Origin: an uncultured Actinomycetes bacterium
GTDB taxonomy: Bacteria; Actinomycetota; Acidimicrobiia; Acidimicrobiales; RAAP-2
Assembly: GCA_903874965.1 (NCBI GenBank)
Contig: CAIQUD010000107.1
Coordinates: 1 to 36,426, forward strand
Direction: 5' to 3'
Length of the DNA stretch: 36,426 nt
In this document: piece by piece, positions 4,232 to 14,462 of the stretch
Numbering within the stretch: position 1 is the stretch's first letter
How the letters are laid out: every line of letters starts with the position of its first letter
Translations under genes and position numbers: made by a program
The notes under the pieces: generated by a model
Told to the model about the DNA's origin: nothing
Database searches by the model: none
The model's input: the letters and a program-made list of their open reading frames with translations, nothing else

Positions 4232-7200
4232 CTAGCGGATCGTCAGCATGAAGGTTGCCTGCACCGCTGAGGTGGTCACCTTGAGTACTCCACCTACGCG
4301 GGTCTTCATCGTTTCAATTGCTTTGACCTTGACGGCACGAGTTCCTGGTGCAAGGTGGACGTTGACGACCCCCGAGAGCACTCCCGACGGAGAAATCTTG
4401 AGTCCAAGCGGCAGCGCCACCGGCATCCAGGAGATCGTGACTTTCGAGGCAGAGGTCGATGGCACAATTCCGGTCGCGTGGAGCGCTACCGGTCCGAATG
4501 TTCGACCTCGAGTGGCTCGTGGGAGTGTCACGGGCACGATGGAGAAACCTTGGACGGTGAGCGACTGAGGCACACCATTCGTGGCGGTGAACCTCGTTCC
4601 TTGACCAACATGGGCAATGAGCGTGCACGTGCCAGGGGCGAGGTAGCTGACGTTCAGGCCAGCAACACTGCAGACAACCGGGGTGGAACTCGTGATCGAG
4701 GTCAGGCCATCTCCCGACGTTGCAAAGGTTGAGGCAAACGAAGCACCGACGATTCCGGCTTTGGGCATATTGGAAATGAAGACCGTGGCGGTGATCTTTT
4801 CAATAACATTGCCGTCAGCATCCGCAATGAAGAGATTGCCCGCTGGATCTGCGCCAACACCACTCGGGTAGCTCAACTTTGATGCGGTGGCGATCCCAGA
4901 AGTCGGAGCTCCATAACTCCCTGTCCCCGCGTAGATGGACAGCACACCGGATGGGCTCACCTTCTCAACAACATGGTTGTCCGAATCGGCAATGTAGAGA
5001 TTGCTCAACGCGTCAGTCGCCACACCGTTTGGAACGCTCAATTTTGAATTCGTTGCCGTTCCGGGTGTTGGCGCGCCTGTGGCGCCAGTGCCTGCGACGA
5101 CAGAGAGCACCCCACTGGGCGTCACCTTCTCAATCACATGCGCGTCAGCATCCGCAATGAAGAGATTGCCCCATCCATCAATCGCAACCCCTGTGGGGTA
5201 ACAGAGCGTTGAACTTGTTGCGGCTCCTGCTGTTGGGGCTCCATAGGAACCAGTCCCCGCGTAGATGGACAGCACACCAGTTGGGCTCACCTTCTCAATC
5301 ACATGGGCGTCGGCGTCGGCAATGTAGAGATTCCCCGAAGTGTCGAGGGCGATACCACTCGGATCGTTCAACTTCGAACTCGTTGCCGCTCCTGGAGTTG
5401 GGGCGCCAGCTGTGCCCGTTCCAGCAACGACGGAGAGCACGCCACTGGGCGTCACTCGTTCAACCAGTGCATTGCCGGAGTCGGCGATGTAGAGATTGCC
5501 GGCTGTATCGATGGCGACACCGTTTGGTCCATTCAACTTTGAGGCAGTAGCAGGTCCAGGAACGGGTGAACCAGCTGTTCCTGTTCCTGCGACGACAGAG
5601 AGCACCCCACTGGGCGTCGCCTTCTCAATCACATTGTTGTCAGTGTCGGCAATGTAGAGGTTGCCCGAACCATCGGCCACAACACCTCGTGGGTTCTTCA
5701 ACTTCGAACTTGTGGCTGTTCCTTGGGTCGGCGCACCGGCAGCACCATTGCCGACAACAACCGAAAGGAGAAGCGGCGGCATGCCCCTTGCAATCGTGAA
5801 GGACTGGTTCGAGCCTTCAGCACTCGTGTAGTTCGTTCCTGACGCCACTCTGGCGATGAGTGTGCAAGTTCCAACCGATACGTAGTTCACGGTTGTTCCC
5901 GTGACCGAGCAGGTGCCAGAAGTTGTACTGACGACCGAAGTTGCGCCGTCACCGGTCGTTGCGATGGCTGGAGTGAAGCTGTCGCCCACAGAACCGGTCA
6001 TCGGGAGATTTCGGATTGACACCGCGGGGGTGATCTTTTCGACCACGGCATTGTCATAGTCAGCAATGTAGAGATTCCCCGTTGCGTCAACGGCCAGACC
6101 ATTCGGTCCACTAAGCATCGAGTTGCCGACAGGTCCCGGTGTTGGTGGTCCTTCGGTACCTGTGCCGGCAATGATCGACAAGGAGCCTGACAACGTGACC
6201 TTCTCGATGACGTGGTTGAAGAAGTCGGCAATGTAGAGGTTCCCCGACGCATCAACGGTCACGGCCTCGGGATAGCCCAAACTTGAGCCAATTGCCACGC
6301 CTTGGCTCGGTGCTCCAGAAGTTCCGTTTCCAGCCACGATCGACAACACGCCACCAGGATTGACCTTTTCCACAAGTGCATTGCCCGAGTCGGCAATGTA
6401 GAGATTTCCTGAGGCATCAACGGCAACGCCCGAAGGACCATTCAAGCGTGAACTCGTCGCGGCTCCAGGTGTTGGGGCCCCATAGTTTCCAGTTCCAGCA
6501 ACGATCGACAAATCCCCAGCGGGTGTGACCTTCTCAATGACATAGTTGCTGTAGTCGGCAATGTAGAGATTCCCCGCCGAATCAACGGTGACATCGGCGG
6601 GATACCGCAACATCGAACGAGTTGCACTCCCAGCGGTCGGTGTGCCAGGAGAACCGGTGCCTGCAACGATCGAGAGCACTCCGCCGGGCGTCACCTTTTC
6701 GATCACTGCATTGTCCGCGTCGGCAATGTAGAGATTTCCTGAGGCATCGACGGCAATGCTCTGCGAGTTGCTCAGCATTGAACTCGTGGCAGGACCCGGA
6801 GTTGGCGCGCCCTGTGTTCCATTGCCAGCCACAATCGAGAGCAGTCCCGAAGGGGTGACTTTTTGCACGATGTGGTTGGAGAAGTCAGCAATGTAGAGGT
6901 TGCCAGAGGCGTCAACGGCGACCCCATTCGGTCCTCCCAGCGTTGCACTCGTTGCAGGTCCTGGGGTCGTGGTGCCTTTCGTTCCGGTCCCAGCGATGAT
7001 GGACAGCAACACCGATGGAGTGCCTCGAGCAATGGTGAAGGACTGCATTGCGCCGTCGGCGCCGGCGTAGTTTGGGCCGCTGGCAACATGCGAGACGAGA
7101 TTGCAGGTTCCGGCGGCGATGAAGTTCACCGTCGACCCCGCCACTGAGCAAATTCCAGGCGTCGCACTGGTAACGCTGGTCGTGCCGTCACCAGTTGATG

Positions 7201-8422
7201 CGACGGAAGGAGAGAACGAACCGCCAACTGATCCACTTTGTGGAAGGTTGCCAATCAGCACTCCAGAGAGTGTGATGTTCGCAACCACGGCACTGTCATA
7301 GTCGGCAATGAAGAGATTGCCTGAAGCATCAAGAGCTAGGCCATTTGGGCTAGCAAACCTTGAACCGGTGGCAGTTCCTGGAGTTGGTGTGCCGTAGATC
7401 CCGGTACCGGCGAAGATCGACAAGGTTCCGCCAGTTGAGACCTCTTCAATCACGTGATTATCGGAATCAGCAATGTAGAGATTCCCTTGAGCGTCCGTGG
7501 TGAGCGCGTAGGGGTTGTTGAGTTTTGAGTTGGTAGCGATTCCGGGAGTCGGTGTCCCTCGAATCCCCGTTCCAGCAATGACCGACAAGGTCCCTCCAGG
7601 GGTCACCTTCTCAACGACGCCGTAGCCAGAATCCGCGATGAAGAGGTTGCCGGAACCATCAAGGGCGATACCTCGTGGATTCCCCAACGGCGTCGTCGTT
7701 GCCGGCCCTGCTACGGGAGTGCCGAATGCTCCATTTCCTGCAACGACTGACAGCATCCCAAGAGGAGTGACTTTTGCAACGACGACATTCAGGTAGTCCG
7801 CAATGTAGAGATTTCCCGTGCCATCAACTGCAACGCCAGTAGGAACGCCTAATGGAGAACTCGTAGCAGGTCCTGGAACCTCTGCCCCTCTCGTTCCAGT
7901 CCCGGCAACAATGGAGAGCACGCCATCAGGGGTGATCTTCTCAATCGCGCTGTATCCAGTGTCGGCAATGTAGAGATTGCCCGATGCGTCAGTCGCCATC
8001 CCGGCTGGGTGACCCAACGGGGAACTTGCTGCAGGCCCAGGTACGGGGGTTCCCGAGATTCCTGTTCCGGCAATGATCGACAGCACGCCGGTTGGGGTGA
8101 CCTTTTCAATGACGCTGTCACCAGTGTCGGCAATGTAGAGATTTCCCAAGGAATCAATGGCAATACCGCGCGGGTTACTCAATTTCGAATTCGTCGCTGG
8201 CCCCGGTGTTGGAACACCAGAAGTGCCAGTACCGGCGTAGAGCGTGAGGAGTGGCGCAGGATTGACGGCAGCTCCAGCAGTGAAGGTTGGCCCCAACACC
8301 GTCAGACCACTGAGAATGGTTACAAAGGCCGTGCTGAAGAGGGCGAGCCGCTTCAGCAAACCATCCATGAACCCATCATGAGGCGCAACTGAGTGCGCTT
8401 CTAGGGGTTCAATCTCCTGCAT
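4232..8422 (-). CDS. Giant secreted protein with three six-bladed NHL propellers separated by Ig-like domains
   Basis: This protein has 1396 residues from ATG 8422, which follows AAGGAA; the frame is open to 8533, and an internal ATG at 8371 is another possible start. A hydrophobic segment at about residues 24-50 is the signal peptide. I count 18 NHL-type repeats of about 55 residues, each with LSIVAGTG and a GNLYIAD-x(5-7)-IEKVTP core, in three blocks of six (about 58-395, 470-800 and 880-1215). Each block is followed by an Ig-like module of about 75 residues with two cysteines (TCSV...GTCTL). The last 100 residues are a further beta-sandwich ending TFMLTIR, with no sortase motif or membrane anchor. 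NHL propellers bind protein, glycan or RNA, but no enzyme active site is evident. Blades within and between propellers are very similar, so the array grew by duplication of whole propellers. The protein is likely a large surface or secreted binding protein. Confidence 0.85.
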   Translation of the reverse strand: MQEIEPLEAHSVAPHDGFMDGLLKRLALFSTAFVTILSGLTVLGPTFTAGAAVNPAPLLTLYAGTGTSGVPTPGPATNSKLSNPRGIAIDSLGNLYIADTGDSVIEKVTPTGVLSIIAGTGISGTPVPGPAASSPLGHPAGMATDASGNLYIADTGYSAIEKITPDGVLSIVAGTGTRGAEVPGPATSSPLGVPTGVAVDGTGNLYIADYLNVVVAKVTPLGMLSVVAGNGAFGTPVAGPATTTPLGNPRGIALDGSGNLFIADSGYGVVEKVTPGGTLSVIAGTGIRGTPTPGIATNSKLNNPYALTTDAQGNLYIADSDNHVIEEVSTGGTLSIFAGTGIYGTPTPGTATGSRFASPNGLALDASGNLFIADYDSAVVANITLSGVLIGNLPQSGSVGGSFSPSVASTGDGTTSVTSATPGICSVAGSTVNFIAAGTCNLVSHVASGPNYAGADGAMQSFTIARGTPSVLLSIIAGTGTKGTTTPGPATSATLGGPNGVAVDASGNLYIADFSNHIVQKVTPSGLLSIVAGNGTQGAPTPGPATSSMLSNSQSIAVDASGNLYIADADNAVIEKVTPGGVLSIVAGTGSPGTPTAGSATRSMLRYPADVTVDSAGNLYIADYSNYVIEKVTPAGDLSIVAGTGNYGAPTPGAATSSRLNGPSGVAVDASGNLYIADSGNALVEKVNPGGVLSIVAGNGTSGAPSQGVAIGSSLGYPEAVTVDASGNLYIADFFNHVIEKVTLSGSLSIIAGTGTEGPPTPGPVGNSMLSGPNGLAVDATGNLYIADYDNAVVEKITPAVSIRNLPMTGSVGDSFTPAIATTGDGATSVVSTTSGTCSVTGTTVNYVSVGTCTLIARVASGTNYTSAEGSNQSFTIARGMPPLLLSVVVGNGAAGAPTQGTATSSKLKNPRGVVADGSGNLYIADTDNNVIEKATPSGVLSVVAGTGTAGSPVPGPATASKLNGPNGVAIDTAGNLYIADSGNALVERVTPSGVLSVVAGTGTAGAPTPGAATSSKLNDPSGIALDTSGNLYIADADAHVIEKVSPTGVLSIYAGTGSYGAPTAGAATSSTLCYPTGVAIDGWGNLFIADADAHVIEKVTPSGVLSVVAGTGATGAPTPGTATNSKLSVPNGVATDALSNLYIADSDNHVVEKVSPSGVLSIYAGTGSYGAPTSGIATASKLSYPSGVGADPAGNLFIADADGNVIEKITATVFISNMPKAGIVGASFASTFATSGDGLTSITSSTPVVCSVAGLNVSYLAPGTCTLIAHVGQGTRFTATNGVPQSLTVQGFSIVPVTLPRATRGRTFGPVALHATGIVPSTSASKVTISWMPVALPLGLKISPSGVLSGVVNVHLAPGTRAVKVKAIETMKTRVGGVLKVTTSAVQATFMLTIR

Positions 8423-8564
8423 GGCGTTCCTTGATCTTGGCGGTTCCATCGAACTCGTCGGTCGATGTTGGGTTATTCCCACTTGCAAAGTTACTGACGA
8501 ATTCGAGTTCGCGCTCCGCGGGCGAGAAATCAAAAGCCTATGACCAGTTGGGACTACCTACCTC

Positions 8565-8672: not shown

Positions 8673-9914
8673 TCAGGAAGAACTCACCACGAGGCCAGGG
8701 AAGGCAGCGGTAAGGCCAGTCATGGTTCCCTTGCCAACGTCTTGGCCATTGAATGCTCGTGATGCGGCGACCGTGATTTGTCCAATGAGACCAAGATCGT
8801 CGAGAACCGGTCGATTGGGCGACTTGCATCCATCAGTCGCCAAGGCGGCGAGATTGTCGGGGACCGTCACGTTCAATGCCTTGGCGATTGCGAGGATCCC
8901 GCCACTTCCCGCACCAATGACACAAATGTCGCTGAACACGTTGTGCCCCGCATCGCTGAGCACCGTCATGTGACTTGGTGCAGTGAGGCCAGCGAACTGT
9001 GTCACGAGTGTCGAGGTTGGCACCGTCATGTCGTTCGACCCGGAAAGCACGTAGCCAGGCTGGCTTGGAACTTGGTCATAGGGAGCGACAAGTTGGTTCG
9101 AGCTGAGCTTGGACATGCCAGCCATACCAATCCAACCCTTCAGCCAAGTACCGCTGGCTTGAAGGGTCGTCGCATAGGAAGCGAGGCGTTCTGACGCCGA
9201 GCCTCCAGCACTGTGGCCGAGCGCAATAACTCTCGTAGCGTCGACATGGTTCTTCAGCAAGGCGACCTTGTTGCCCAAGAGATAGGTGCGAAGCGCGATG
9301 AGATCATTGACGTCGGCATTCGGATCGGTCGTTGGGGGAGTCAGGCTGACCGTTGGGTCGAGCTGCGCCGTCAAGTTTCGACCGAGATGATCAGGCGCAC
9401 ACACGGCAAAACCCCAACTAGCGAGGTGTGAGGTGATGCCTGCTGACTGATCCCGGAAGCCGCCATAGCCATGACTGAACAGAACGAGCGGGAACTTTCC
9501 AGAGGCAACAGGTGCCTTGGCGATGCCGCCAGTTGGATAGGTGGCGATGGTCTTTGCCGCTGGGTTGCTGTTCACGATGAAGGCAATGGGAGCAGGGAGC
9601 CACTGGGACATGTTGTAGATCGATGAGGTTCCAATCGCCAGAGTTGGATACCAACAATCGACGTTGGTGGTGTAGCCAGCGGGCGTCAGGGTGGTTGGAG
9701 GAACGGCAAGATCAAAGGTGGTGATGCCGACATGGTAGGGACCGGCACCTTGGAAGGACGTATTCGTCGCTCCAGTCGCCTTAACGAAGGTGGTGCCTTT
9801 CACGACGACGGTTGGAGGGGCTTTGATGGACTTTGCCGCACCGGCGACCGATGGAATTGCGGTGATGCCCAAGAGGGTGAGGGCTGCAATTCCTGTGCTG
9901 AGTGAACGACGCAT
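8673..9914 (-). CDS. Secreted alpha/beta hydrolase (PAF-acetylhydrolase / chlorophyllase-like)
   Basis: This 413-residue protein starts at ATG 9914, six bases after AAGGAG. Residues 1-27 are a signal peptide (MRRSLSTGIAALTLLG...AGAA). The hydrolase core shows FPLVLFSHGYGG (oxyanion-hole region, about 141-152), the nucleophile elbow GHSAGG with Ser235, an acid candidate Asp295 in SGSNDMTVP, and His324 in DAGHNVF. This forms a complete Ser-Asp-His triad in the expected order. The lid-type insertion and the HGYGG and GHSAGG motifs match the platelet-activating-factor acetylhydrolase, chlorophyllase and cutinase-like group, which cleaves esters. The substrate cannot be named from sequence. It is divergent from the operon starting at 10130, with about 215 bases between them, and forms a single-gene unit. 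Confidence 0.85.
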   Translation of the reverse strand: MRRSLSTGIAALTLLGITAIPSVAGAAKSIKAPPTVVVKGTTFVKATGATNTSFQGAGPYHVGITTFDLAVPPTTLTPAGYTTNVDCWYPTLAIGTSSIYNMSQWLPAPIAFIVNSNPAAKTIATYPTGGIAKAPVASGKFPLVLFSHGYGGFRDQSAGITSHLASWGFAVCAPDHLGRNLTAQLDPTVSLTPPTTDPNADVNDLIALRTYLLGNKVALLKNHVDATRVIALGHSAGGSASERLASYATTLQASGTWLKGWIGMAGMSKLSSNQLVAPYDQVPSQPGYVLSGSNDMTVPTSTLVTQFAGLTAPSHMTVLSDAGHNVFSDICVIGAGSGGILAIAKALNVTVPDNLAALATDGCKSPNRPVLDDLGLIGQITVAASRAFNGQDVGKGTMTGLTAAFPGLVVSSS

Positions 9915-10129
9915 GAAGACTCCTTATCCCGAGATAGCTGCATGGTACTCAGTCAAAGTTTTTTTTGCTGGAAGTTGCGGAATGTTCCAGCGAGCACTGG
10001 CCACTCGAAATGAGTGCCCCGTTCTTCGTGGGGTGGTGTGTAACCATAGATTGGTGAACCACAAGGTCAATCAGACTCGGGTGGAATGAGCGATCAGTTC
10101 TCCAAATCCGTTGCCAATGGAAGGTGTCG
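9915..10129. promoter_or_regulatory. Divergent intergenic region feeding the hydrolase and the Mau-like operon
   Basis: This 215-base gap must hold both promoters. On the minus strand a TTGACT (complement of 9951-9956) lies upstream of the hydrolase's ribosome site, but no well-spaced -10 box follows. On the plus strand GGAAGG at 10119-10124 is the ribosome site of the operon. I see no clear operator. Confidence 0.35.
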
Positions 10130-10897
10130 ATGTTCGTAGGTGCAGCAGTTGTTCTTGTCCTGATTGCCGCGATTCGTGGCATGTGGTCTCCCTGTGGCCT
10201 CTCGATGTTGTCGACGATCACCCCACTGGCAGAGCGGTTGCGTGGGCACTCGTATGGAGTAACTGCTTCGTGGTTTGTGCTTGGAAGTATGGCCGGGGGT
10301 GCTTCACTTGGAGTGCTCTGCGCACTTGGTGCCGTTCTCGTCCATGCGGTTGGGCTCGGGACCACCTTTGCGCTGTGGAGCTCGGCAACGGTTGGCGTCA
10401 TTGCCTTACTTGCTGACGGAAATGTTCGGGGGTTCAACCTTCCAGCGATTCCCCGTCAGGTAAATGAGCAGTGGGTTGACCGATATCGACCCATTGTTTA
10501 CGGCATTGGATTTGGGTGGCAGATCGGCGCGGGCTTTACGACCTACGTCATGACCGCAGCGAATTACGTGCTCGTGTCGATCGCGATTTCGTCTGGCTCA
10601 CCGCTCACCGCATTCAGTCTGTGCGTGTTGTTTGGCATAGCGCGTGGAGCTGGCATTTTGGTGGGCAGCGGAGTCACTACAACGGCGAAATTGCTTGAGG
10701 TTCACGCCTGGCTGCAACGTCACGAACAAGCGAGCCAAGTGGCCTGTCTTGTAGCCGAGTTGGCGGTCGTCATTGTTGCAGCGGAAGCCCTGCTCGGTCC
10801 GATTGGCGCACTTCTCGGTGTCCTGGTTGGCGTGGGAACCGCATTGCAACTCCGTCGTTCACGAAAGGTCGAGGACCGAGACCTCGTCCAAGCATGA
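10130..10897 (+). CDS. CcdA/DsbD-like integral membrane thiol-transfer protein
   Basis: I use ATG 10130, five bases after GGAAGG, giving 255 residues; a GTG at 10124 overlaps that ribosome site. The protein is almost entirely hydrophobic, with about six membrane helices. The first helix ends in MWSPCGLSMLSTITP, the proline-flanked cysteine (Cys22) and following helix break typical of CcdA/DsbD-type electron carriers. A second cysteine in FSLCVLFGIARGAG lies in a later helix, as needed for a transmembrane Cys pair. Such proteins move reducing equivalents from cytoplasmic thioredoxin to the outside, or keep partner thioredoxins in a working redox state. It is the first gene of six coupled genes; its stop overlaps the next start by four bases. 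Its likely job is redox control of the cysteine-rich protein at 12125. Confidence 0.7.
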   Translation: MFVGAAVVLVLIAAIRGMWSPCGLSMLSTITPLAERLRGHSYGVTASWFVLGSMAGGASLGVLCALGAVLVHAVGLGTTFALWSSATVGVIALLADGNVRGFNLPAIPRQVNEQWVDRYRPIVYGIGFGWQIGAGFTTYVMTAANYVLVSIAISSGSPLTAFSLCVLFGIARGAGILVGSGVTTTAKLLEVHAWLQRHEQASQVACLVAELAVVIVAAEALLGPIGALLGVLVGVGTALQLRRSRKVEDRDLVQA

Positions 10898-11652
10898 CGG
10901 TTGTTGTGGTGATTGAAGCCGTGGTGCTCCTCGTGCTTGGTCTGGTCGTTGCGGGACTCCTTGCCAGCTACTCAGGACTCAATGAGCGCATTCGTCGGGT
11001 CGAAGGTCGGGCTCCGCAACAGCGCCTTCCCCCCGATGACTTTGCACTCACACCGGTTGAGGGACATCGTGAAGATGGAACGACCGTTCTCCAACTCGTC
11101 GGACGGACGCCGCTTGGCGACGAAGTCATTCTGCCGACAGCGGGAGTCGATCACGATCTTCTCGTTGCCTTCCTCTCGAGCGGATGCACGAGTTGTGGGT
11201 CGCTCTGGGCTGATTTACGAGAGGGTCGATTGCCAGTGCTGCCGGCATATCTCCGACTTGTTGTGGTGACGCGAGGCGTGACTGACGAAAGCCCCGCAGC
11301 AATTGCAGACCTCGCGCCCGACGATATTGACGTGCTCATGTCGACTGAAATCTGGGAGGACTTCTCTACCCCCGGATCTCCGTACTTCGCCTATGTCGAA
11401 GGAGCAACGGGACGGGTGGTCGGAGAAGGAACGGCGCTCTCGTGGACGCAAGTTCTCGCTCTCGTCGCGACGTCAAGCGGCGACGCCGCAGTTGTATCGG
11501 AAACCGGTCGTGATCTCGCGAAGCCAAGAAGTGATCGGGATCGAGAGAACGGCGTCGACCTCCTGCTGCTCAATGCAGGAATTTTGCCGGGGGATCCATC
11601 GCTTTACCCAACGCCGGCAATCGAAGTAGCGCTAAACGGAGAAGTCTCGTGA
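10894..11652 (+). CDS. MauD-like membrane-anchored thioredoxin-fold protein
   Basis: This 252-residue protein starts at ATG 10894 and overlaps the previous stop (ATGA). An N-terminal membrane anchor spans residues 1-27 (MTVVVVIEAVVLLVLGLVVAG), leaving the rest outside. The thioredoxin-like region follows, with LLVAFLSSGCTSCGSLWADL; the active-site CTSC is at residues 98-101. In the methylamine utilisation (mau) clusters, MauD has this architecture and is needed to form disulfides in the quinoprotein small subunit. The gene order here (thiol transporter, MauD-like, light-chain-like, MauE-like) supports that role. The C-terminal 60 residues are variable. It could also be a generic TlpA/ResA-type protein, but context favours MauD. 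Confidence 0.75.
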   Translation: MTVVVVIEAVVLLVLGLVVAGLLASYSGLNERIRRVEGRAPQQRLPPDDFALTPVEGHREDGTTVLQLVGRTPLGDEVILPTAGVDHDLLVAFLSSGCTSCGSLWADLREGRLPVLPAYLRLVVVTRGVTDESPAAIADLAPDDIDVLMSTEIWEDFSTPGSPYFAYVEGATGRVVGEGTALSWTQVLALVATSSGDAAVVSETGRDLAKPRSDRDRENGVDLLLLNAGILPGDPSLYPTPAIEVALNGEVS

Positions 11653-12128
11653 CCACTCACCGAGCATTGGGCATAAGCGTTGATGTCCCTCGAGGTTGGG
11701 AGGCACGAATCAGTCGAATGGTGCCGCAGCCTGGAGACCATGTCGAAGAACAGCACCATCCTTATCTTCACTTGGCGTCATTCCCACTTCCGCCAGTTCG
11801 TGCCCACTATGGCGGTGGTGCAGTCGAACGGATGCGGACCGATGATGTCTTCATTGCGGTCTTGGACTTCGGAACTGAGGCAGCGAATACCTCGTTGTTC
11901 GGTCACGCTGGCCTTCCGCGACGACTGGCAAGGTCTGGCTTCTCTGCTCGCCAACTTCAGCGAATGATCCCAGGTCAACTGGGGTCCCAGCACTTCTGCA
12001 CGGTTGCCGGACGAGGAGTTGTCCTGTACGTCGTCCTTGGAGGTGGAACGGCACTCTCGACAAAGGTGCCAATGGTGAACGCGCTCCTGCCGTCGATTTC
12101 GTTTTCGCACGAGGGGATCAAGGCGTGA
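11649..12128 (+). CDS. Unknown protein of the Mau-like operon (possible PsbP/LpqN-like fold)
   Basis: This 159-residue protein starts at GTG 11649, overlapping the previous stop as GTGA; its own stop overlaps the next GTG in the same way. I do not recognise the family. It has no signal peptide or membrane helix. The opening ALGISVDVPRGWEARISR resembles the first strand of PsbP/Mog1/LpqN-type domains, and the remainder alternates strands with basic segments (RRLARSGFSARQLQRM). It contains one cysteine (HFCTVAGRGVVLYVV) near the C-terminal third. Its position between the MauD-like gene and the cysteine-rich substrate suggests a cytoplasmic assembly, chaperone or proofreading role before Tat export. 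That is inference only. Confidence 0.6.
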   Translation: MTTHRALGISVDVPRGWEARISRMVPQPGDHVEEQHHPYLHLASFPLPPVRAHYGGGAVERMRTDDVFIAVLDFGTEAANTSLFGHAGLPRRLARSGFSARQLQRMIPGQLGSQHFCTVAGRGVVLYVVLGGGTALSTKVPMVNALLPSISFSHEGIKA

Positions 12129-13771
12129 GTGCTTCATCGACGATGTCGTCCTTGACCAAGCCGCTCGTTGAGCGCCTTGCCGGACTCCTTGGGAGTCCAG
12201 TGTGGAATAGGCGGAGCTTTCTCGTGCGCACCGCCCTTTTTGGTTCAGCGGTCGCTGTTGCACCGAAGGAGTTCGCTCTCGAGCCGCGAACGGCCTATCA
12301 ATCCATCTGTGGATTCTCGTCAAGCTGTCACGATGGGTACACCGCGTTTTGTTGCACGATCAATGCGGGTGCCAACTTTTGTCCGACAGGCACCTTTATT
12401 GCTGGTTGGTGGAAGGCAGACCGGGCGTCATTCTGCGGCGGAAAGGCTCGGTACTACGTCGACTGCAATGGCCTGCCCAACACGGAATGGCATTGTCACT
12501 GCCCAAGCACGTCGACCTGCGACAAACGACATGTCTCGTGCGTGCAGTTTCGTTATGGAAATTGTCACACGGACATCGCCATTGATGTGAACAAGAGTCC
12601 GGTTGTCTGTCGACTCGTCACCTGCACACCGCCATGGCAATTTGACCCAAAGTGTTTGACGACGTCCTTCACCGATCAGAACACCGAGACGCACTCGGCC
12701 CCTTGTCTTCCTGGTCCAAATCCGAGCGCGATCACCAATAAGTGGTCAGACCTTGGAGGTCAAGGCGGCCTTCTTGGTGCACCTGTCGGAAAACTTCAGA
12801 CACTCCCAGCACCCTCAGGTCACTGGCAGCAATATGCCAAGGGAGCAATCTTTGAGAGTCAGCGGCTCGGTCTCCACGTGGTGACGCCGAAGGTATGGAG
12901 CAATTTTTCCAGCATGATCGCAACTGGATCACTTGGCTACCCGAATGACGATGGCCATCCCGTCGTCGACAAGGTGGGTTGGCGTCAAGGATTCGCCACC
13001 ATTACCAACAACACGTCCACGCCCAGCGCGATTGTGGTTGCCCATCCAATTGCGGGAATCCACGGAGTCCTTGGTTCTGCAATTGGTCCGTGGAGCACCA
13101 GTGGTGCCGAAATCGGCATTGGTTATCCGACCGCGACGACCGCCACAACCGCAGACGGCTTTGGCACCATCACTCCATTCACGAAATACACGGGAACAAC
13201 TCCGGTTGCCTCATCGGCAGTCGTGACAAGTCTCGCCACCGGTGGCTGGGTGATCAAAGGAAACATCTTCTCGACCTGGAACGGAGGTGGAGGTGTCAGC
13301 ACGCTTGGCTACCCCACCGCAAACCTCAAGGCCACGGTTGGCGGCGTTGGTTCATCCCAACAATTCTCCTTGGTCAATGGATCAGGCATCGTCCCGAACT
13401 CATTGAGCATCATTGTGACCTCGACCGCCGCAACGGTCGTGCTGAGCAGCGATGCAGCTCGAGCATTTGTCGCAGATCAACTTGCCGGCGGAAGTACGGG
13501 CTTGCCGACTGGAGCCCCGACCATCGGCACCGCAGGTGCGACGCCCTATACGGAACTTCGTTGCACCAACGGCAGGATCTACGACAGTGCTCTTGGTCGA
13601 ACGTGCAGCATCGGCGGCCCACTTCTCGCTGCGTATCTCACCGCAGGGGGTCCAACGGGATCCCTTGGCCTTCCAACGTCAACGACCATCAACGACGGTG
13701 GTGGTGTCAGCCATGTCAATTTTGAACATGGTGTGCTGACGGGAACACCAACTGGTGTGGTGCAGTCCTAG
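12125..13771 (+). CDS. Tat-exported methylamine dehydrogenase light-chain-like protein fused to LGFP repeats
   Basis: This 548-residue protein starts at GTG 12125. A twin-arginine signal lies at 28-46 (NRRSFLVRTALFGSAVAVA). Residues 58-195 hold 16 cysteines and align by eye with the methylamine dehydrogenase light chain (compared from memory with the Paracoccus protein): CPTGT-x(4)-WW (86-96) for the segment before cofactor Trp57, Asp70-Gly for Asp32, YVDCNG-x(7)-CHC (Asp113) for the Asp76 region, and VVCRLVTCT near the C-terminal end. The second cofactor tryptophan (Trp108) appears to be Val161. Residues about 200-545 carry five or six LGFP-type repeats (LGAPVG, LGYPND, IGYPTA, LGYPTA, LGLPTS), associated with actinobacterial cell-wall binding. 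Neighbours supply disulfide machinery, but no heavy chain or MauG is present. It could be a wall-attached redox protein or a purely structural disulfide-rich domain. Confidence 0.8.
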   Translation: MSASSTMSSLTKPLVERLAGLLGSPVWNRRSFLVRTALFGSAVAVAPKEFALEPRTAYQSICGFSSSCHDGYTAFCCTINAGANFCPTGTFIAGWWKADRASFCGGKARYYVDCNGLPNTEWHCHCPSTSTCDKRHVSCVQFRYGNCHTDIAIDVNKSPVVCRLVTCTPPWQFDPKCLTTSFTDQNTETHSAPCLPGPNPSAITNKWSDLGGQGGLLGAPVGKLQTLPAPSGHWQQYAKGAIFESQRLGLHVVTPKVWSNFSSMIATGSLGYPNDDGHPVVDKVGWRQGFATITNNTSTPSAIVVAHPIAGIHGVLGSAIGPWSTSGAEIGIGYPTATTATTADGFGTITPFTKYTGTTPVASSAVVTSLATGGWVIKGNIFSTWNGGGGVSTLGYPTANLKATVGGVGSSQQFSLVNGSGIVPNSLSIIVTSTAATVVLSSDAARAFVADQLAGGSTGLPTGAPTIGTAGATPYTELRCTNGRIYDSALGRTCSIGGPLLAAYLTAGGPTGSLGLPTSTTINDGGGVSHVNFEHGVLTGTPTGVVQS

Positions 13772-14275
13772 ATGAGCGAGTTCTTCATGGTCTTCCCGGC
13801 AATGGCGGCTCTGCTGCTCGTTGGTGCTGGCTTGGCAAAAGTGCTCCGTCCGACTCCGGCAGTGACTGCAATGCAGGCAATTGGACTGCCTTCGTCGACG
13901 TTCATCGTGCGCATCGGTGCGGCACTCGAGGTACTCCTCGGATGCTGGAGCATCGTCATTGGGTCCGTCTGGGCATTGATGCTTGTCGTCCTGTCGTATC
14001 TGGCCTTCGCACTCTTCTTGGCGGTTGCTCGACGGTCACCAAACGTTGCTTCGTGCGGCTGTTTTGGAGAAAGCGGGTCGCCCCCATCGATTCGACAGAT
14101 CGTGGTTGACTTCCTGGTCGCCGCGGGATGTGGTGTCGCGCTGTTGGTCGAGAGTCCACCACTGCGGACACTGCTCCACCGGTCCTTTTTCTTGGGGATG
14201 GTGTTTTCCGTGATCACGCTTCTCGGAGCTTGGTTCTCGGTACTTGTTCTCGATCCTCCACTTGGGACGGAGTGA
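13772..14275 (+). CDS. MauE/DoxX-like redox-associated membrane protein
   Basis: This 167-residue protein has its ATG directly after the previous TAG. Four membrane helices are visible (about 5-20, 45-80, 105-125 and 135-160). The loop after the second hydrophobic block contains SCGCFGE, with Cys95 and Cys97, the CxCFG hallmark of MauE and related DoxX-fold membrane proteins. In mau clusters MauE works with MauD to form the disulfides of the cysteine-rich small subunit. The same pairing here, with no gap to the light-chain-like gene, argues for one pathway. A general DoxX-type respiratory accessory protein is the alternative. Confidence 0.78.
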   Translation: MSEFFMVFPAMAALLLVGAGLAKVLRPTPAVTAMQAIGLPSSTFIVRIGAALEVLLGCWSIVIGSVWALMLVVLSYLAFALFLAVARRSPNVASCGCFGESGSPPSIRQIVVDFLVAAGCGVALLVESPPLRTLLHRSFFLGMVFSVITLLGAWFSVLVLDPPLGTE

Positions 14276-14276
14276 G

Positions 14277-14462
14277 ATGGAAGCGGTTGCTGGTGCGCTC
14301 CTCGTTGCCACGGTCCTGTTGGCAGTCGTTGCGGTAGACGTGCTTCGGGCTCACGCAGCCCTCGTCAGGAGTCTCGACACCCTCGATCCACTCGACGCAT
14401 CAACAGCAACTCCAATCGAACTCACGAACAAGCCGATCGATGCTGAAGGAACCGACCTCTGA
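14277..14462 (+). CDS. Small single-span membrane protein ending the Mau-like operon
   Basis: ATG 14277 lies one base after the previous stop and gives 61 residues. Residues 3-22 form one membrane helix (VAGALLVATVLLAVVAVDVL), followed by a polar tail. No family is recognised. Position and tight spacing make it the sixth gene of the operon; it may be a small assembly subunit. Confidence 0.6.
   Translation: MEAVAGALLVATVLLAVVAVDVLRAHAALVRSLDTLDPLDASTATPIELTNKPIDAEGTDL

Follow-up and report, generated by a model that had tools for sequence, protein, structure and literature searches.

A conserved Mau-type gene module with a cysteine-rich exported client in Actinomycetota, and a predicted selenocysteine form of MauF

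The 36,426-nucleotide contig CAIQUD010000107.1 of an uncultured Actinomycetes bacterium (assembly GCA_903874965.1), called here the window, carries six closely packed genes that recall part of the mau cluster of methylamine dehydrogenase (MADH), and the question raised by this locus is what such genes do around an exported cysteine-rich protein that has no MADH heavy chain beside it. MauD and MauE are required for the MADH light chain, which has six disulfides. In our best reading the operon is a dedicated Mau-type folding cassette whose client is not a quinoprotein: on balance, what it probably makes by oxidative folding is a structural or binding protein saturated with disulfides and anchored in the wall, and not an amine dehydrogenase. 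Five of the genes, coding for MauF-, MauD- and MauE-like proteins, a protein that we call gene 3 and the cysteine-rich protein, constitute a conserved, undescribed module of Actinomycetota. Furthermore, the MauF-like protein of most relatives appears from its codons to be a selenoprotein, and this prediction is the strongest new element of the work. The operon is made up as follows:

10124-10897, + strand: MauF-like membrane protein of the DsbD superfamily (match to Paracoccus MauF, DsbD_2, codon survey)
10894-11652, + strand: MauD-like membrane-anchored thioredoxin with a CTSC motif (family profile against Paracoccus MauD)
11649-12128, + strand: gene 3, a conserved cytosolic protein with a predicted PsbP/Mog1/LpqN-like fold
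12125-13771, + strand: full gene of the exported cysteine-rich protein (leader, cysteine-rich domain and LGFP tail)
12125-12274, + strand: its long twin-arginine leader (NRRSFL), the RRxF/L motif being kept in homologues
12275-12715, + strand: its cysteine-rich domain with 16 cysteines and conserved GWWK, RYY.DC, FRYG[QN]C and CR.VTC (alignments, invariant columns)
12716-13771, + strand: its LGFP-repeat wall-binding tail, lineage-specific and swappable (PF08310; match to Corynebacterium PS1 in the PDB)
13772-14275, + strand: MauE-like membrane protein with CGCFG (PF07291 and family profile against MauE)
14277-14462, + strand: small membrane protein like the N-terminal anchor of MauD (mauD profile match, 1e-9)

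A previous reading made from the letters alone (the sequence-only reading) had described six genes packed with overlaps of 1-4 bases or gaps of 0-1 base, and we measured three overlaps of 4 bases followed by gaps of 0 and 1, all six genes being on the + strand. The cysteine-rich domain is present in 63 of the 296 genomes of the class (search with the 147-residue domain) and, by a profile search across the phylum, in 30 of 396 genomes, and a scan of named genomes located it in Acidimicrobiia, Nitriliruptoria, Nakamurella, Frankiales, Pseudonocardiales and Kineococcus, cultured hosts being Nakamurella endophytica and Aquihabitans sp. G128; the gene cluster is common to many soil and freshwater actinobacteria. 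Homologues of the MauD-like gene and of gene 3 adjoin this domain in 40 of 40 independently fetched loci, and the operon is far beyond a chance association. Among 121 loci gene 3 was found in 115 and not seen in 6; the loci in which the other genes were not seen number 11 for mauD, 20 for mauE and 34 for the MauF-like gene, and many of these are cases of contig ends. The set of five recurs in nearly every locus, with several arrangements of the genes, and no other family is conserved in these neighbourhoods. Moreover, exactly one copy of MauF was found in 18 of 18 tested genomes with the cysteine-rich gene, including those where it lies outside the locus, and 27 of the 28 phylum genomes (out of 366) with a MauF match above 130 bits are in the list for the cysteine-rich family. 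Because the five genes recur together and MauF co-occurs genome-wide with the cysteine-rich gene, the cassette looks dedicated, and the proposal of a Mau-type disulfide operon is borne out by this neighbourhood and by the profile matches to Paracoccus MauF, MauE and MauD. The sixth gene, which was seen only in close relatives (L071, L072, L075, L079), codes for the small membrane protein that is similar to the anchor at the N-terminus of MauD. As for the wider distribution, the module is patchy (G000, which is the window genome, G231, G047 and further members of the family), being absent in another genome of the same genus and in most of the family, which suggests loss or horizontal transfer.

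The first gene had been taken for a CcdA-like carrier, which holds at the level of the superfamily, since 15 of 28 MauF-like members match the Pfam family DsbD_2 (CcdA/DsbD carriers: PF13386, PF02683), whereas its specific identity is MauF-like: it scores 67.8 bits against Paracoccus MauF in a family profile, colinear over residues 90-270 of the latter, and the two share the WSPCG motif, so that the family stands much nearer to MauF than to CcdA/DsbD. The MauE-like assignment was confirmed by PF07291 (46.7 bits, cut-off 27) and by the CGCFG motif, and family profiles matched Paracoccus MauE and MauD with 42.6 and 39.2 bits, respectively. The MauD-like thioredoxin, with its membrane anchor and thioredoxin domain, has the C-T-S-C attributed to it, and its CxxC is kept in 102 loci; the window protein by itself had no Pfam match. 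Gene 3, already listed as an unknown protein, indeed had no match in the Paracoccus mau cluster nor in any Pfam or NCBIfam family. Its AlphaFold model is confident (predicted local distance difference test, pLDDT, 94.6), and a Foldseek search gave Tsi3 as best match (E=2e-3) and also PsbP, EagT6 and LpqN, all with low TM-scores, that is, a weak fold match. A polymorphic toxin/immunity system was considered on account of Tsi3 and dropped, as the match is only a weak likeness of fold and the invariant part of the exported protein is here the N-terminal domain and not the tail.

The codon for the cysteine of WSPCG is TGA in 57 of 83 MauF-like loci (L092:6647-6649, L089:6654-6656 and 55 other loci) and TGC or TGT in the remaining 26, with nothing else; Kineococcus vitellinus T13 and Acidiferrimicrobium sp. 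IK are cultured hosts of the TGA form. The window has the cysteine form (TGT at the equivalent 10193-10195), and no strong tRNA-Sec or SelB was found in its genome, a metagenome-assembled genome about 85% complete. Only TGA, never TAA or TAG, exchanges with the cysteine codon. In the 57 loci the 20 codons before TGA are free of stops and code for a conserved hydrophobic segment that is most variable at codon position 3, so that the upstream reading frame is real. Furthermore, the machinery for selenocysteine (Sec) was detected in all 27 TGA-form genomes tested, as a strong tRNA-Sec (24) or as SelB above the cut-off (3), and in 9 of 20 cysteine-form genomes (Fisher p=1e-5). A predicted hairpin like a selenocysteine insertion sequence (SECIS), defined by a loop starting with GG and at least five Watson-Crick pairs, comes after the TGA in 47 of 57 genes but after the cysteine codon in 2 of 26 (p=6e-11), both p-values assuming independent loci, which related genomes are not. 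The TGA-form folds are also more stable than shuffles of synonymous codons (mean z -1.40 against -0.35), and compensatory pair changes occur; RNAalifold on all TGA genes pooled found no hairpin common to them, the probable reason being two registers of the stem, which put the loop at +33 or +29. Elsewhere in the phylum there is a second MauF group, more distantly related, in which 14 of 18 cases have TGA and 4 have TGC; its neighbours are MauD, MauE and a different protein with 10 cysteines and twin-arginine export. No TGA was found at the cysteines of MauD or MauE, which are always kept where the motif was detected.

If the TGA were a true stop, MauF would start at a downstream Met, and there is in fact one four codons past the TGA, where gene finders would begin; the conserved, stop-free segment upstream of it, the exclusive use of TGA and the distribution of tRNA-Sec/SelB and hairpins leave very little room for this explanation. 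Reading of UGA as Trp was discarded, the aligned residue being Cys and tRNA-Sec/SelB accompanying the TGA form. Known prokaryotic selenoproteins likewise show Sec/Cys exchange, a SECIS-like hairpin and co-occurrence with the Sec machinery (PMC13188914). An inventory of 2026, in which 119 families of prokaryotic selenoproteins are listed, contains neither a MauF-type entry nor an SP-U-G motif (PMC13188914), and its nearest label, TsoB (a rhodanese/DsbD fusion with UxxxxU), is a different NCBIfam family with no match here. As the MauF-like family has no NCBIfam match either, the predicted Sec-MauF looks new, a judgement resting on that inventory and that search.

Other candidate clients were observed beside such MauF genes. 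A second actinobacterial cassette (L183-L200, e.g. L183:4281-6026) comprises MauD, a Tat-exported (twin-arginine translocation) 10-cysteine protein with the motif CGHxYTT..CC.GR.R.I.DCC..RINGD and a domain without a Pfam family, a mostly Sec-form MauF and MauE. At L202:3716-5765 a third type of client, with a twin-arginine leader, a cysteine-rich domain related to the 10-cysteine family (hhalign E=5e-6) and a long tail that is CWB2-like by eye and has no Pfam match, lies beside a TGA-form MauF.

The client of the window has 16 cysteines in residues 53-195 and 18 over the whole protein. Of 121 homologues, 119 have an even number of them in the domain (16, 18, 20, 22, 24, 26 or 28) and two an odd number, so that all are very probably paired in disulfides. 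Moreover, variable cysteines are gained or lost pairwise, with phi of 0.92-0.97 for co-lost pairs such as window residues 77 and 194 (0.92). A disulfide-saturated domain of this kind would explain why a thiol-disulfide machine of its own is needed. Export by the Tat pathway, as had been proposed, is supported by the RRxF/L motif, present wherever the N-terminus is intact (120 of 120 homologues). The tail matched the LGFP profile as anticipated (PF08310, 63.7 bits, cut-off 22), and LGFP repeats are common to the window protein and to envelope proteins such as Corynebacterium PS1, whose mycolyltransferase domain is lacking here. However, the wall-binding tail stands as a feature of the window protein and not as a defining part of the family, as among 81 tails scanned we found LGFP in 28, FG-GAP in 6, CWB2 in 4, SLH in 4 and a few ricin-type and B-lectin domains, and some homologues are tailless; judging from these profiles, one tail can stand in for another, and most of them bind the wall or glycans. 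The cysteine-rich domain itself matched no Pfam, NCBIfam or PDB profile, and a search of PDB profiles with the whole cysteine family was empty; its AlphaFold model is fair (pLDDT 82, predicted TM-score 0.80).

Whether this domain is a MADH light chain was the central claim of the sequence-only reading, and membership in that family was not upheld. The order of its motifs (CxxxxxC, CPPGT, Trp, YxDC, CxC) does recall the light chain, but PF02975 matched neither the window protein nor any of 41 homologues, and gave no real match across the phylum. Foldseek with the domain returned noise and no light chain, which is a weak negative because such searches perform poorly on cysteine-rich folds that have little secondary structure. 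Profile alignment by hhalign to proteobacterial light chains gave E=0.03, and E=0.002 after adding those of Thermomicrobium, below usual significance; with the bridged profile the homologues scored -15.1 on average, against -22.4 (standard deviation 6.9) for shuffles with fixed cysteines, and 26 of 121 exceeded the 99th percentile. Bridging light chains sought in Actinomycetota amounted to short sub-threshold matches. Homology of the cysteine-rich domain to the light chain is thus suggestive only. GWW and an Asp before Cys are invariant in the 121 homologues (with one Phe at the first Trp), and by manual alignment the W57-like Trp is kept and the position of W108 is occupied by Gln or Asn in FRYG[QN]C. 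If the two families are homologous, MADH W57 and Asp76 (before Cys77), the latter corresponding to window D113, are conserved and W108 is replaced; because the W108 position is lost, an ordinary tryptophan tryptophylquinone (TTQ) is ruled out as far as this manual alignment holds. The C77-C194 disulfide, deduced from co-loss, would have no MADH counterpart.

The quinoprotein partners are also missing, as had been noted for the heavy chain and MauG in the operon. MauB, MauG and MauJ had no match near any of the 121 loci, and no MauG, cytochrome, other conserved oxidase gene or conserved acceptor was found in the neighbourhood. By its own test the sequence-only reading is therefore half refuted: the light-chain profile gave no match, and homologues beside a heavy chain or mauG were not seen. 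In 12 whole genomes, several of them single-contig, the heavy-chain family PF06433 was found in none (with Paracoccus as positive control), and the MauG family PF03150 was not found in 11. The mau cluster of Paracoccus denitrificans likewise puts MauF, MauE and MauD by a twin-arginine-led, disulfide-rich small subunit (MauA); in contrast to it, the module lacks MauB, MauG, MauJ and amicyanin and has the additional gene 3, and its client has 16-28 cysteines, lacks the second TTQ Trp and usually carries a tail. The closest profile bridge to the window family is given by light-chain-like proteins of the Thermomicrobium roseum plasmid NC_011961, which are also cysteine-rich, twin-arginine-led and beside MauE and MauD, but keep both Trp positions and adjoin propeller-like proteins; at least one of these light-chain-like proteins passes PF02975 (37 bits). 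In that plasmid, L151:10652-23918, perhaps an unstudied multi-copy locus of MADH-like type, holds at least four tandem propeller-like/light-chain-like pairs followed by MauE and a MauD-like gene.

How the module might work can be proposed as follows. Gene 3, cytosolic and PsbP/Mog1-like, would handle the precursor, and Tat would export the cysteine-rich protein. MauF, with its redox Cys (as in the window) or Sec in most relatives, would pass reducing or oxidising equivalents, together with MauE, to the CxxC of MauD, which would form or correct the 8-14 disulfides of the client, and the tail would hold the client in the wall as a structural or binding module. We consider it quite likely that MauF acts as a redox-active carrier which, in most of the actinobacterial lineages that have it, is a selenoprotein, and that a new thiol-disulfide export pathway using selenium is defined by it. 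The Tat-exported cysteine-rich clients of this pathway would be of two kinds at least, probably three, among them the wall-anchored family of the window.

Other explanations of the operon have to be weighed. The LGFP, SLH, CWB2, FG-GAP and ricin-type tails would suit an adhesin or surface-layer component that lies by chance next to a generic disulfide pathway, but this is unlikely given that the five genes, including the family-less gene 3, recur in almost all loci in several orders and that MauF accompanies the cysteine-rich gene genome-wide. We find it improbable, too, that the client, attached to the wall, acts as a redox enzyme by means of a new Trp- or aromatic-derived cofactor, in which W95-W96 (W57-like) would be modified near D113 without W108, MauG or heavy chain: the invariant GWW and pre-Cys Asp, their alignment with W57 and Asp76 if homologous, and the Mau-type accessory genes speak for it, while the Gln/Asn at W108, the weak homology to MADH and a neighbourhood lacking MauG, cytochrome, oxidase and acceptor genes speak against it. 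A true but degenerate light chain, with heavy chain and MauG elsewhere in the genome, could account for the light-chain-like motif layout, the long twin-arginine leader and the adjacent MauF, MauE and MauD, but the results for PF06433, PF03150 and PF02975 and the loss of W108 have already largely refuted it, and it is very improbable.

The dedicated folding cassette, which we prefer, has also several points that weigh against it. About 20 non-cysteine residues of the client hardly vary (GWW, R, Y, D, FRYG, R115), which, in the alignments, exceeds the needs of a pure scaffold and would allow for catalysis or specific binding. The MauF-like family has one widely conserved Cys/Sec, unlike the two-cysteine CcdA and DsbD, and electrons may flow in either direction through MauF, MauE and MauD. 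We infer the precursor role of gene 3 from a weak match between predicted folds, and most close relatives of the window genome do not have the module.

Outside the operon, the window also encodes a 1433-residue secreted protein with NHL/SBBP beta-propeller repeats (4232-8533, - strand), which an exported alpha/beta hydrolase (8673-9914, - strand) adjoins.

Finally, to our knowledge a role has never been assigned to MauF, and the exchange of Sec and Cys at its single conserved cysteine marks this residue as redox-active and makes the question testable. The predicted Sec-MauF looks missing from the inventory of prokaryotic selenoproteins as it now stands, and its genes will be cut short by gene finders. 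Furthermore, the Mau accessory trio would have at least one widespread client outside the quinoproteins, and therefore annotation of MauE, MauD or MauF should not be taken as a sign of methylamine use.

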